Source of the DNA: Magnetococcales bacterium | GTDB lineage: Bacteria > Pseudomonadota > Magnetococcia > Magnetococcales > DC0425bin3 | Length of the DNA: 45,144 bases | Assembly: GCA_015231175.1 (NCBI GenBank) | Contig: JADGBZ010000020.1 | Coordinates: 1 to 45,144 of the forward strand | Direction of reading: 5' to 3' | In this document: positions 1,463 to 30,310 of the stretch, one piece after another | How positions within the stretch are numbered: position 1 is the first letter of the stretch | Layout: each line of letters opens with the position of its first letter | Position numbers and translations under genes: made by a program | Notes under the pieces: model-generated | The model's database searches: none | Told to the model about the DNA's origin: nothing | The model's input: the letters and a program-made list of their open reading frames with translations, nothing else

Positions 1463-1510
1463 GGCCTTGGCCCCTTTGGGTTCAGGGTCGCTTGCGTTGC
1501 TGCTTTCCAA

Positions 1511-2020
1511 TCCCGGTTGGTTGTGATTGCGAGCCGGGTTTGCCCTCTATAGCGCAACCCCAATGCCAGATGACTTTTTGTCAATGAAAGCAGCTATTTG
1601 AATGCGTTTTTCCGGGCTTGGAACGGGGGCATTTTTGAGGGAGGGTGGGCTGGCGCTGGGAGGAATGCGAAATGGAACGGATGGCCTGCAAAACGGAATG
1701 GAATGGCAGCGAATTGGAACGCCATGACAACAAAATGGAACGCAAAAGCTGCAAATCGGAACGGCATGGCCCGCATGGTGGAATGGCCAAAATGCCTGGA
1801 ACAGGCCATGAACACTGCGCATTTCAGGCGGAGGGGGGCGATGGGCAATGCGGGCCACAGAATGGAACGCTGTGGCCTGCAATCTGGAACGGCATGGCCC
1901 GCATAACGGGCCGTTCTCACTTGAATGAAGGGAGGGCGGACTCAGAGATGGTCCGCTTTTTGATCTATGGAACGACGTGATTGCGAGCCGCTGATTGTTC
2001 CCACATCAGAGGTGATCGCC
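1511..2020. other. Noncoding divergent region with repeat block
   Basis: About 500 bases separate the minus-strand ParB-like operon from the plus-strand recombinase cassette, so promoters for both should lie here. The central part is filled by the degenerate repeat block described separately. Open frames through it on both strands consist only of the repeat and are not convincing genes. No clear sigma-70 promoter was identified. Confidence 0.6.
1669..1904. repeat. Degenerate 21-22-bp tandem repeats
   Basis: Roughly seven consecutive units of 21 or 22 bases run from 1669 to about 1820, and two more from about 1857 to 1904. Each carries a core like TGGAACGGcATGGC followed by a C/GC end, for example AATGGAACGGATGGCCTGC and TCGGAACGGCATGGCCCGC. 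The spacing keeps frame, so both strands translate into seven-residue repeats (such as VPFCCHG/VPIRCHS on minus). The lack of start signals and the two irregular units argue for a noncoding array. It could be a protein-binding (iteron-like) region near the ParB-like genes or a decayed repeat family. Confidence 0.6.
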
Positions 2021-2224
2021 ATGAGTGCATTGAAAGGAACCGGATTCCGCCCCCCCACGCCCGATCTGATGTCCGCCGAAGAGCGGTTGGACGAAGTGGC
2101 CGGCATCCTTGCGAAGGGTATGGCGCGGGTTCTGGAAAAGAGAAAAACCGAGCATTTACCACTGGATAAGACGCCAACCATACGCCCTTATGGTCCGAAA
2201 CCAACTCAAGGAGAAGGACCATGA
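2021..2224 (+). CDS. Small protein of the DUF2924/recombinase cassette
   Basis: A 67-residue protein starting at ATG after an AGAGGTGAT ribosome site. Its centre is one amphipathic helix (SAEERLDEVAGILAKGM). Short proteins with this RLDEVAxILAxG helix often stand directly ahead of DUF2924 and serine-recombinase genes in proteobacterial integrated elements; that is the reason for the call, and the biochemical role is not known. Its stop overlaps the ATG of the DUF2924 gene by 4 bases, so the two are probably translated together. Confidence 0.6.
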   Translation: MSALKGTGFRPPTPDLMSAEERLDEVAGILAKGMARVLEKRKTEHLPLDKTPTIRPYGPKPTQGEGP

Positions 2225-26312: not shown

Positions 26313-26388
<76 letters not shown>

Positions 26389-26560: not shown

Positions 26561-26932
26561 TCAAAGGACTTTCAGTTTCGGCCCCAGCCAGCGGTTGATC
26601 TCCATCTGCCTGATCGAAATCCCAAGGCTCACCTCGGACATGGTGGTTCCCGCCGACACCAACACGCGGTTGATGTCCTCCAGGAAAGGCAACAGTTCGT
26701 CCGGCGTGATCCCCTGACCCTGGTCCTGTCTGGCGTAAATCAACGCCTTCAACTCATCGATCAAAGCCTGGCCATCGTCGTATGTCCGCTCCTTTGAAAG
26801 CCGGTGCTTCTTCTGGTAAGGCTCCGCACCCTGGGGAGGCATCAAGTTGGCCTCAATCCAACGCATCTTGCCTTTGTCAGAAACCTGAATCGTGATGGTG
26901 CGGGGGGACTGTTTGGGTGTGCTCGTGGTCAT
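26561..26932 (-). CDS. Hypothetical island protein
   Basis: A 123-residue protein with AAGGAG 9 bases before its ATG and a terminator after its stop, so it is well supported as a gene. It begins with a Ser/Thr-rich stretch, then a strand (RTITIQV), a KMRWIEANLMPPQG segment and a helical C-terminal half (DGQALIDELKALIYARQ, LLPFLEDINRVLV). No signal peptide or membrane segment. I do not recognise the family. It is divergent from the toxin-antitoxin pair, with about 300 bases between them. Confidence 0.75.
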   Translation of the reverse strand: MTTSTPKQSPRTITIQVSDKGKMRWIEANLMPPQGAEPYQKKHRLSKERTYDDGQALIDELKALIYARQDQGQGITPDELLPFLEDINRVLVSAGTTMSEVSLGISIRQMEINRWLGPKLKVL

Positions 26933-27228
26933 GGCTGTTTGCTCCTTTTCGGGGATGGATGAAAAGACCGGGTGCCGAAAACCGCAAACAGTCGGCGGAC
27001 TTATTCCCCCGAGGGGTATTGTATTCGTCCACACCCGGCCATGACCAAGCACGCAAGGCGCGTACCCAGATTCAAGGCGCAAAAATACCGCTGGTCTGAC
27101 GGGTGCGGTGTCCGCTGTTTGGTGGGGTTTTCGGCCCCGTTCCAGGAACCTATTCCCTGCCAGGGAGGAATGCAAGTGGATTTCTGCGGATGTTGTGGGA
27201 TATCTTGAGACACAGGAGGGTACAAAAC
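26933..27228. other. Divergent intergenic region of the island
   Basis: About 300 bases between the unknown minus-strand gene and the plus-strand antitoxin. Both promoters should lie here; I could not assign clear -35/-10 pairs. No coding frame is convincing. Confidence 0.45.
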
Positions 27229-27687
27229 ATGAACGATGCCGCAGGAAACATCACTTGCCTTAACGTTGCCAACTACTTCCTTTCCCTTGCCGATGAAGAG
27301 GCAGGGGATTTGATCTCGAATATGAAACTGCAAAAGCTTGTCTATTACGCGCAAGGCTTCCACTTGGCCATGTTTGACAAGCCGCTCTTTGCGGAACCTG
27401 TTGCCGCTTGGACCCACGGTCCTGTCATTCCGTTGCTCTACCAGAAATTCAAAGAGTTTGGCTCAGGACCAATCCCAAGGCCTGAAAGGGTGCTCGCTGA
27501 CCGTTTCCCGAAGGAATTGTGCGATTTTTTGAATGAAGTCTACAACGAGTATGGCCAATATGACGCCTGGAAATTGCGCAATTTGACCCATGAGGAACCA
27601 CCATGGCGGGAAACCTACAACCGGGAGCCGGGGGGGTGCATCCCTCTTGATGCCATGAAGGATTACTTCAAGACCCAGCTTCAGTAG
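27229..27687 (+). CDS. Panacea (DUF4065/SocA-like) antitoxin
   Basis: A 152-residue protein with AGGAGGG 8 bases before its ATG. The central domain has the Panacea signature: VANYFLSLA, then MKLQKLVYYAQGFHLAMFDKPLF and EPVAAWTHGPVIPLLYQKF, and a C-terminal LRNLTHEEPPWRETY segment. Proteins of this family neutralise many unrelated toxins encoded next to them (Panacea TA systems) and include SocA of Caulobacter, which delivers its toxin to ClpXP. The next gene starts 9 bases downstream and is its likely toxin. Antitoxin first, toxin second is the usual order. Confidence 0.9.
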   Translation: MNDAAGNITCLNVANYFLSLADEEAGDLISNMKLQKLVYYAQGFHLAMFDKPLFAEPVAAWTHGPVIPLLYQKFKEFGSGPIPRPERVLADRFPKELCDFLNEVYNEYGQYDAWKLRNLTHEEPPWRETYNREPGGCIPLDAMKDYFKTQLQ

Positions 27688-27696
27688 TGGTTGGAT

Positions 27697-28098
27697 ATGA
27701 TCAAGCATCGCGGAGGTCAAGGGAAAAGGATCAAGCCGCCTCCAAAAGGGTCGGGGTCAACCAACCAGGAGAAGCCGGTATTCTCCCTGGTTCATCTCCA
27801 GGACGGCCACGCCCTGGATGAATGCAACCAGGAGGAAAAGGCGGCCTTTGCAGACACGCTTTACCGTCTTTCCCGGTTGACGTGGGGAGAGATTCAAAAC
27901 GCCCCTCGTCATGGTCTTGGGTCTGAAATTATTTCCCGCGACGCCATCAAAGTTGGCATCCCAAACGTTATCACGCCTGATGTTCGCATTATCGCGTTCC
28001 GATGTCATGGAAAGGCCCCCATGCTCGGATTCCGAGATGGCAGGGTGTTTCATGTGGTATGGATGGATCGTGGTTTTACTGTGTACAGCCATGGCTGA
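27697..28098 (+). CDS. Putative toxin partner of the Panacea antitoxin
   Basis: A 133-residue protein starting at ATG 9 bases after the antitoxin stop; a TTG two codons upstream is possible. After a basic, disordered-looking start (GGQGKRIKPPPKGSG) there is a compact domain: FSLVHLQDGHALDECNQEEKAAFADTLYRLSRLTW in outline, an invariant-looking APRHGLG box (about 66-72), and a strand-rich end RIIAFRCHGKAPMLGFRDGRVFHVVWMD. The end resembles the sheet of RelE-like RNases, but the catalytic set cannot be confirmed. Similar small proteins accompany Panacea antitoxins. Toxicity and target are inferred, not shown. Confidence 0.75.
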   Translation: MIKHRGGQGKRIKPPPKGSGSTNQEKPVFSLVHLQDGHALDECNQEEKAAFADTLYRLSRLTWGEIQNAPRHGLGSEIISRDAIKVGIPNVITPDVRIIAFRCHGKAPMLGFRDGRVFHVVWMDRGFTVYSHG

Positions 28099-28134: not shown

Positions 28135-28551
28135 TCACCTACACCCGCACCCGCGAATTCCGCGTTCTAAACGCGGAATTGTCATCACTTGCTCGCGTTT
28201 CAAACGCGACCAAGCCAAACTCTTCCAAATCAGGCGGGGGGATGCTCCTCGATCATCTTCTGCAGCACTCCTGCCGCCGTGGCTCGAATGCGTCGCGTCT
28301 CCCGCAGCAACAGAGCCTGAATCTCGGCTTGGTTGGTCATGCCGGCCAACTCGGATGCCAAGCGACCCCCCAACCCGATAGTCTCCAACACGAAGTCGAT
28401 ACCCTCCACCCACCAATGTCCTGACGTTGGATGCCGACAAAGGATCATCCGCCAACCGGAACAGGGCAGCGACAATGCGTTCCCTCGCTCTTTTGTCCAG
28501 TGCATCAAGTTCCTTTTGTGCATGGGGTTCAATAACAACGCGCCAACTCAT
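28135..28551 (-). pseudogene. Broken RelE/ParE-family toxin gene
   Basis: The first 57 residues are a normal RelE/ParE start: MSWRVVIEPHAQKELDALD, a helix RARERIVAALFRLADDP, and the strand GGGYRLRVGDYRV. The usual following strands (a YxIxD segment and a VLxVxHRR-type ending with the active residues) are missing. Instead the frame runs through unrelated sequence for 80 residues. In the next frame, DNA from about 28380 to 28240 could encode another protein's tail (NQAEIQALLLRETRRIRATAAG), so a deletion or frameshift has probably joined two pieces. The start overlaps the antitoxin stop (ATGA). Confidence 0.75.
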
Positions 28552-28838
28552 CCAACGGGACCGATGCCACGGGAGCGGGCATAATCTTCAAGGGAAATCC
28601 CCGGACGGCCTTGGCGTTCCCATATCTCCAGCCTCTCCCGAATCAAACGGGAGTCTTCGGCATCCTCAACTGTTTGCTGTGCCGTATCCGCTGTTTGCTG
28701 TGCCGTATCCGCTTCGGTCAGCAGGTGGTGGAATACCATCAGGAGGTAATCTTCCAAGGTTTGCCCGCTCTTGTTGGCCATGGCCTTCAACCGAAGTTCC
28801 ATTTCGTCCGGCAACGTGACAGAAAACATGGTCTTCAT
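28548..28838 (-). CDS. RHH-type antitoxin
   Basis: A 96-residue protein whose first 45 residues form a ribbon-helix-helix DNA-binding domain (TMFSVTLPDEMELRLKAMANKSGQTLEDYLLMVFHHLL). Such proteins bind their own promoter and neutralise a RelE/ParE toxin through the C-terminal part. Here the linker contains a perfect duplication, ADTAQQT-ADTAQQT. The start overlaps the integrase stop and its stop overlaps the broken toxin start, both as ATGA, so the three genes form one transcript led by the integrase. Confidence 0.85.
   Translation of the reverse strand: MKTMFSVTLPDEMELRLKAMANKSGQTLEDYLLMVFHHLLTEADTAQQTADTAQQTVEDAEDSRLIRERLEIWERQGRPGISLEDYARSRGIGPVG
28670..28711. repeat. Perfect 2 x 21-bp tandem repeat in the antitoxin gene
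   Basis: Unit CTGTTTGCTGTGCCGTATCCG occurs at 28670-28690 and 28691-28711 in its two copies, adding seven residues in frame. The identity suggests a recent duplication. Confidence 0.9.
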
Positions 28839-30088
28839 CCTCCCTGGTTGGCACGAATCGAGATCACTTCGGCTTTTGGGGTGCCATTCAGTGCCGCAGC
28901 GATTTGACCAGAAATTCGGTCGGCGGCCACCTTGAGTGGATCGGCACTCAGATGGGCATAGCGTTGGGTTGTGCTGGCCTGGGTATGGCCCAGGAGTGCC
29001 CCCACGATGGGCAACCCCATTCCGGATACGACGCCAATGGAAGCAAACCCGTGGCGGGTGTCATGAATGCGAACGTCACTGAGTCCAGCCCTTTCCCGAA
29101 TTTTGCGCCAGATGCGGGGAAGTCCCACCAGAGGTTGGCCATGGATGGCACCAGGGAAGCAGAACGGTTGTCCCTCGATGCGTGGTAATCCAGCCAACAA
29201 TTCCAATGCCGCCGCCCCTACATGAACCACCTTGGCCCCCGTCTTGGAGTCTGGCAGACGCAGACAACCCCTTTCAAAATCGACATGCGACCATTGCAAA
29301 GTCAAAACCTCCCCCCGCCGCATGCCGGTCAACAACAGCAAACGTAACGCGGCAATGGCGGATGGATTCACCCCCTCTCGTTCAGCTTCCCTCAGTGCAT
29401 CTCCCAGGCGGGTGAGTTCCTCACCGGTCAAAAATCTTTCCCTGCGTTCTCCAGGGAATTTTTTGATTCCATGGGTCGGATTGTCTGCCCGGAATCCCCT
29501 CTCTGTCGCAAAGACAAAAATGGCACCCAATAAACCCATGCACCGGGTTGCAGTTCCCTTGCCTCCGGTCACGATGGCCCGGCCACGCAGACCTGTCTTG
29601 ATGTCGGCAGCTGTTTTGCCTTCGGCTACGGCACTCATGAAGCGTTGCGTGTCGGTGCGGGTAACCTGATCCACGCGCTTGCGTCCCAACAAGGGTTTGA
29701 TATGGCGTTCGATCCGCCCCCGGTCGATGGACAATGTAGACGCCTTTTTGGTTGCTGTTCCTTCTGCCATGTACAGGTCACACAATTCCGCCACGGATGG
29801 CATGGACTTGATTTGCGCCTTCACTTCAGCAGGGTCTTCCCCTTTTGCCACCATTCCCAGAAGTCGGACGGCTTCCGTTCTTGCCTGGTCGGGAGTCCAA
29901 GGGGAACCATGAACCCCGATCACCAACCGCCGTTTGTTCCCATTGATGCGATATTGGACCAGATAGACCTTGCGCCCGGAGGGAGTGACCTTGAGACCGA
30001 ATCCGGTCAGGTCTTCATCAAAAAGGAACAGGTCTTTGTCACCGGGTTGGGAAGCATCGACAGTGCGTTTATTCAATCTGGTGGCCAT
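28835..30088 (-). CDS. Tyrosine integrase of the island
   Basis: A 417-residue phage-type integrase. The N-terminal arm-binding domain (about 1-90, with LTGFGLKVTPSGRKVYLVQYR) belongs to the DUF4102 type. A core-binding domain follows (100-195). The catalytic domain has Arg257 in TGMRRGE, Lys282, His342 and Arg345 in IHDTRHG, His368 in LLGHTQ and the nucleophile Tyr377 in TQRYAHL; all are present. It should integrate and excise the island at tRNA-Val. Its end overlaps the RHH antitoxin start. Confidence 0.95.
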   Translation of the reverse strand: MATRLNKRTVDASQPGDKDLFLFDEDLTGFGLKVTPSGRKVYLVQYRINGNKRRLVIGVHGSPWTPDQARTEAVRLLGMVAKGEDPAEVKAQIKSMPSVAELCDLYMAEGTATKKASTLSIDRGRIERHIKPLLGRKRVDQVTRTDTQRFMSAVAEGKTAADIKTGLRGRAIVTGGKGTATRCMGLLGAIFVFATERGFRADNPTHGIKKFPGERRERFLTGEELTRLGDALREAEREGVNPSAIAALRLLLLTGMRRGEVLTLQWSHVDFERGCLRLPDSKTGAKVVHVGAAALELLAGLPRIEGQPFCFPGAIHGQPLVGLPRIWRKIRERAGLSDVRIHDTRHGFASIGVVSGMGLPIVGALLGHTQASTTQRYAHLSADPLKVAADRISGQIAAALNGTPKAEVISIRANQGG

Positions 30089-30264: not shown

Positions 30265-30310
30265 TTGACACGGTAGGGGTCAGAGGTTCAAATCCTCTAC
30301 CGCCCACCAT
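30265..30310 (+). repeat. attR core, displaced 3' end of tRNA-Val
   Basis: Identical 46-bp copy of 26343-26388. The bases before it do not form the 5' half of a tRNA, so this is a tRNA fragment left by integration. Confidence 0.95.

Follow-up and report, generated by a model that had tools for sequence, protein, structure and literature searches.

The window analysed here, a 45,144-nucleotide stretch of DNA from a Magnetococcales bacterium, contains a Panacea gene followed by a short open reading frame (ORF) on a small mobile element, which raises the question whether these genes form a toxin-antitoxin (TA) pair and, if so, how the toxin might act. The first-pass annotation had described a DUF4065/Panacea antitoxin followed within 9 bases by a small protein, and both genes, designated panA and panT, were confirmed (Table 1). 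The panA gene starts with ATG behind the Shine-Dalgarno sequence CAGGAGG and ends with TAG (27685-27687); 9 bases separate it from panT, which also starts with ATG. An alternative TTG start for panT is located at 27691, yet MIK is also read in close relatives. The panA product scored 77.3 bits against PF13274 (SocA_Panacea) and thus exceeded the curated cut-off of 25.7; a Pfam search revealed no domain besides Panacea, and panA is the only Panacea gene of the whole genome. Just 5' of panA lies a leader (27170-27219), copies of which (82-88%) are present on two further contigs of this genome; it possibly represents a shared expression signal.

Table 1. Features of the integrative element and its ends in the window.
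Feature	Position	Strand	Evidence or remark
Att repeat within the tRNA-Val 3' end	26343..26388	+	46-bp perfect direct repeat; tRNA-Val 26313-26387 (ARAGORN)
123-aa ORF adjoining the panA-panT pair	26561..26932	-	no family match; 41% identity to L102
Rfam sRNA-Xcc1 match	26958-27040, with 26933-27145	-	62.9 bits; immediately 5' of the 123-aa ORF
panA, stand-alone Panacea (SocA-like) antitoxin, 152 aa	27229..27687	+	PF13274, E 2.2e-21
panT, candidate toxin, 133 aa	27697..28098	+	phrog_8366, E 1e-46; AlphaFold2 and Foldseek; no Pfam match
ParE-like toxin ORF, apparently truncated by frame change	28135..28551	-	PF05016 profile positions 1-67 of 89 only; frames inspected
RHH/ParD-RelB-like antitoxin, second TA-like pair	28548..28838	-	NF048017, E 6.8e-7; ParD, E 5e-4; both below cut-off
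Tyrosine integrase of the element	28835..30088	-	PF00589, E 1.3e-23; PF13356, E 3.1e-15
Att repeat, distal element end	30265..30310	+	46-bp perfect direct repeat, spacing 3922

All sequence motifs highlighted earlier, namely the APRHGLG box and the strand-rich end with AFRCHG and GFRDGRVFHVVWMD, are present in the PanT translation. Alignment of the family assigned H72, G75, E77, I79, R102, W122 and D124 to its invariant core, and the HGLGxExI box proved to be both invariant and specific to this family. Both genes are under purifying selection; with a dN/dS of 0.06-0.13 for panT and homologues (43-83% identity) spread over many taxa, a chance ORF can be dismissed.

The pair resides on an element bounded by perfect direct repeats of the tRNA-Val 3' end, and an integrase gene adjoins the right end. 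No transfer genes were found on its 3.9 kb, so that the element had been correctly described in this respect. Two further components are absent from the first-pass annotation. The first is a second TA-like pair (28135-28838, minus strand), whose RHH antitoxin gene contains a 21-bp tandem repeat and whose ParE-like toxin is probably inactive, because the profile match ends at position 67. As this second toxin looks truncated, PanAT may be the element's sole functional addiction module, and stabilisation of the island by PanAT is plausible. The second is a match to sRNA-Xcc1, and a search of 61 related genomes, that of the window among them, located the stretch 26933-27145 in 21, with no more than four matches each, a recurrence that resembles that of a dispersed element. 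The 123-aa ORF also occurs beside PanAT in the relative L102.

Searches with the PanT sequence assigned it to phrog_8366, a family without assigned function, over nearly its full length (profile positions 12-140 of 140), whereas Pfam profiles gave no match. The NCBIfam family MAG6450 (NF046006) scored 20.1 bits (E 7e-4) and did not reach its cut-off of 40 bits; MAG6450 is only a distant relative of PanT. A profile comparison nevertheless links PanT to a MAG6450-like set (98.2%), and members of this set are likewise located 3' of Panacea genes. The gene number of MAG6450 in Mycoplasma agalactiae immediately follows that of MAG6440, a "prophage protein ps3" (PMC3179502), and the same label is carried by a Panacea protein in the annotation of phage CF60a.

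Relatives of panT with 83%, 73% and 70% identity occur in related genomes, but the distribution is patchy: in the phylum sample of 299 genomes, 7 carry the toxin gene, that of the window included. Among phages, more distant relatives (26-52% identity) were found in those of P. aeruginosa and in P22-like phages infecting E. coli and Salmonella; the plasmids that carry such relatives come from Legionella, Pontibacter, E. coli and P. aeruginosa. Moreover, relatives are encoded on 64 viral contigs, and matches to the panA-panT pair were obtained in 82 of 5426 E. coli genomes. Among the more divergent loci is a prophage of E. coli UMNF18 (L019:3450-3872), where the toxin gene 3' of the Panacea gene is unannotated in the RefSeq record. 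In P. aeruginosa phages the pair sits near the integrase, and in phage Emek it occupies an accessory-gene position between an injection-protein gene and the mnt/arc/ant region. Carriage by an integrative island, prophages and plasmids would fit addiction or defence cargo, and these positions are compatible with both carrier stabilisation and phage exclusion.

The accessory-gene position in phage Emek could also indicate that the pair acts mainly against phages by abortive infection, so that its worth to the island would lie in defence over addiction. Such a role is further suggested by a match of the toxin domain to PADLOC NsnC (E 5e-6), which is confined to the C-terminal third of that protein (positions 184-280 of 284). 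NsnA, NsnB and full-length NsnC do not accompany the pair, which places it outside NsnABC, a system for which we found no description in the literature. As addiction explains carriage by elements of many life styles equally well, we regard a mainly anti-phage function as unlikely; it would differ from the TA reading in role and not in mechanism.

At each place examined in phages and plasmids a Panacea gene precedes the toxin gene, in some cases without being annotated as Panacea. This order is shared by phages of E. coli, Salmonella and P. aeruginosa and by plasmids of Legionella, Pontibacter, Rhizobium and P. aeruginosa. A profile search of viral contigs yielded 61 toxin loci, 59 of which carry PanA directly upstream on the same strand; three loci were added later, two of them with the same arrangement. 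Overall, this linkage holds for 61 of 64 viral loci, and one more toxin gene, the third of the late additions, is flanked by PanA genes. In the contig of the latter (L088:2438-4356), the toxin gene lies between a minus-strand Panacea gene and another complete Panacea-toxin pair, which belongs to the MAG6450-like branch.

Frequent occurrence of the toxin without its antitoxin had been named beforehand as the observation that would speak against a TA pair. This was not observed: the two viral loci that lack PanA, L056 and L074, are remnants in which the N-terminus of the toxin is missing, and further members without PanA are damaged as well, being a fragment (L009), frameshifted (L001) or devoid of the C-terminal end (L003). 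No intact toxin without antitoxin was detected among the family members examined, and a situation in which only degraded copies stand alone is what a toxin predicts. One of these loci, from a metagenome assembly (L001:4436-5285), comprises an ORF with a TIR_2 domain and then the toxin domain, which is split over two different frames; it may be a fusion broken by frameshifts or a product of decay, and despite its resemblance to a TIR fusion we did not use it as evidence. In a remote branch (L094 and L097, about 1483-2098, minus strand), the partner located 5' is an AbrB/DUF2080-like small protein and not Panacea, and relatives of this type were also found on Burkholderia, Alicyclobacillus and cyanobacterial plasmids. 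This suggests that the antitoxin was exchanged in this branch, the partner being assigned by inspection and one weak match.

The pairwise distances of PanA and PanT correlate with r = 0.71 (30 pairs), a value reached by none of 5000 permutations, and shared host ancestry contributes to this correlation, though the hosts are diverse. Co-divergence lends indirect support to a putative complex of both proteins. Theoretically, PanA and PanT could be two co-conserved phage accessory proteins that cooperate without toxicity, for instance in superinfection exclusion, and eight of the putative toxins in the published PanAT set were not toxic in E. coli (PMC8832971). Considering the decay of members without PanA and the RelE-like predicted fold described below, we judge this very improbable. 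Conserved adjacency and co-divergence, together with carriage on prophages, plasmids and the island, instead provide good support for a Panacea TA pair as island cargo.

The profile search and structure prediction suggested earlier were performed and gave the phrog_8366 assignment and a predicted RelE-type fold, respectively. An AlphaFold2 model computed from an alignment of 27 members reached a pLDDT of 86.8, with residues 1-16 disordered. Foldseek returned an archaeal RelE as its best PDB match (probability 0.91), and YoeB, HigB2, HigB, YafQ, RelJK and the RelE domain of Cami1 recurred in the list. A second model, built for a distant relative, was of low confidence (pLDDT 63); its best 50 Foldseek matches were nearly all members of the RelE superfamily or similar to RelE, with YoeB at the top (probability 0.99, E 6e-3). 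Neither model gave a match at E 0.001 or better, and they are not fully independent, since their alignments have most rows in common; a Foldseek search against viral models returned no usable match. Similarity to RelE, YoeB and YafQ was not seen by sequence profiles: PDB sequence searches with the single protein and with profiles A1 and A7 gave chance hits only, and hhalign to YafQ and YoeB profiles remained below 2% probability, without signal. As profiles show no link, it is the predicted fold by which PanT is tentatively placed in the RelE superfamily; the confident model and the weak one both point towards the fold of RelE, YoeB, HigB and YafQ. Because of this predicted fold, the earlier view of PanT as a toxin whose target is not described loses part of its force.

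In the family alignment, H72, E77, R102 and Y130 are invariant and H132 is nearly so, and these residues look catalytic. The predicted fold together with these conserved residues suggests a ribosome-dependent mRNase. RelE and ParE have one common fold, and among the matches of the second model were a ParE2 complex and an Agrobacterium YoeB/ParE toxin, so that PanT might act like ParE as a poison of DNA gyrase. The top fold matches are nevertheless the mRNases RelE, YoeB, HigB and YafQ, and the five apparently catalytic residues likewise argue against a gyrase poison, which we consider distinctly improbable. An RNase on a RelE-like scaffold could also cleave another substrate, e.g. free tRNA or rRNA, by means of its own HxxGxE motif; the HGLGxExI box peculiar to the family and the lack of a sequence link to known RelE proteins are consistent with this proposal, but it appears quite unlikely, as the fold matches favour ribosome-dependent mRNases. 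A broader version, which we regard as doubtful, would unite phrog_8366, MAG6450 and the NsnC C-terminal domain in one widespread effector domain, which would have a RelE-like scaffold with a separate HxxGxE active site, act on something else than mRNA in the A site and be partnered by Panacea, by AbrB/DUF2080-like antitoxins or, when fused, by defence proteins.

We therefore propose, as the probable reading, that PanAT is a type II pair in which a RelE-superfamily toxin, likely a ribosome-dependent mRNase, is held off by direct binding of Panacea. PanA, a stand-alone Panacea domain, would be made first and bind the 133-aa toxin, keeping it inactive. Control by direct binding is likely, because PanA consists of Panacea only and stand-alone Panacea domains can neutralise toxins via direct contact in published pairs (PMC10440598). 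The toxin would be freed when PanA is lost, as in a daughter cell without the element, or upon a trigger such as phage infection. With its predicted RelE-superfamily fold and N-terminal extension it would most likely enter the ribosomal A site and cleave mRNA, with H72, E77, R102, Y130 and H132 as candidate active-site residues, and translation would stop. A family annotated as unknown in prophages of E. coli, Salmonella and Pseudomonas, on plasmids and on this island thereby receives a testable prediction, namely a RelE-fold toxin with a stand-alone Panacea neutraliser, and the pairs of E. coli phages are easy to study. The predicted fold would furthermore connect classical toxins with the MAG6450 family of mycoplasmas and with a portion of PADLOC NsnC.

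The pairing of Panacea antitoxins with many toxin folds has already been published (PMC8832971, PMC10440598). The published PanAT pairs are likewise two-gene operons with a stand-alone Panacea antitoxin first and a small toxin, and they are, as here, kept across species and located on mobile DNA; at the present locus, a Panacea score above the curated cut-off, the 9-base gap and conservation of the pair in many taxa agree with this type. In the main texts of these studies, which describe 88 clusters and the NetFlax nodes, the phrog_8366 toxins are not mentioned by name. SocAB of Caulobacter, a type VI system, also contains a Panacea protein, SocA; PanA reached 72.6 bits with the SocA equivalog NF047745 and stayed below its cut-off of 190. 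SocB, compared here by its description, binds the sliding clamp, whereas PanT has a RelE-like predicted fold. RipAB of pneumococcus (PMC12795458) was dropped from the comparison, being a Rosmer-type pair without Panacea.

AarT of Acinetobacter guerrae (NetFlax node D3) has an mRNA-interferase fold, gives no HHpred hit and blocks translation (PMC10440598). It may be related to PanT, as judged by description, and differs in being paired with an AAA ATPase instead of Panacea; AAA-ATPase-paired relatives of this kind were not found in plasmids or viral contigs. The phrog_8366 and MAG6450 families share the same or a related domain with PanT, neither of them with an assigned function. With the mRNases RelE, YoeB, HigB and YafQ, PanT has the predicted fold in common, but it is longer, carries an N-terminal extension and its own HGLGxExI box, lacks similarity at the level of sequence profiles and is combined with Panacea rather than with an RHH, Phd or HTH antitoxin. 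The PanT family appears to be a useful new branch of a known kind of toxin and does not introduce a new principle.
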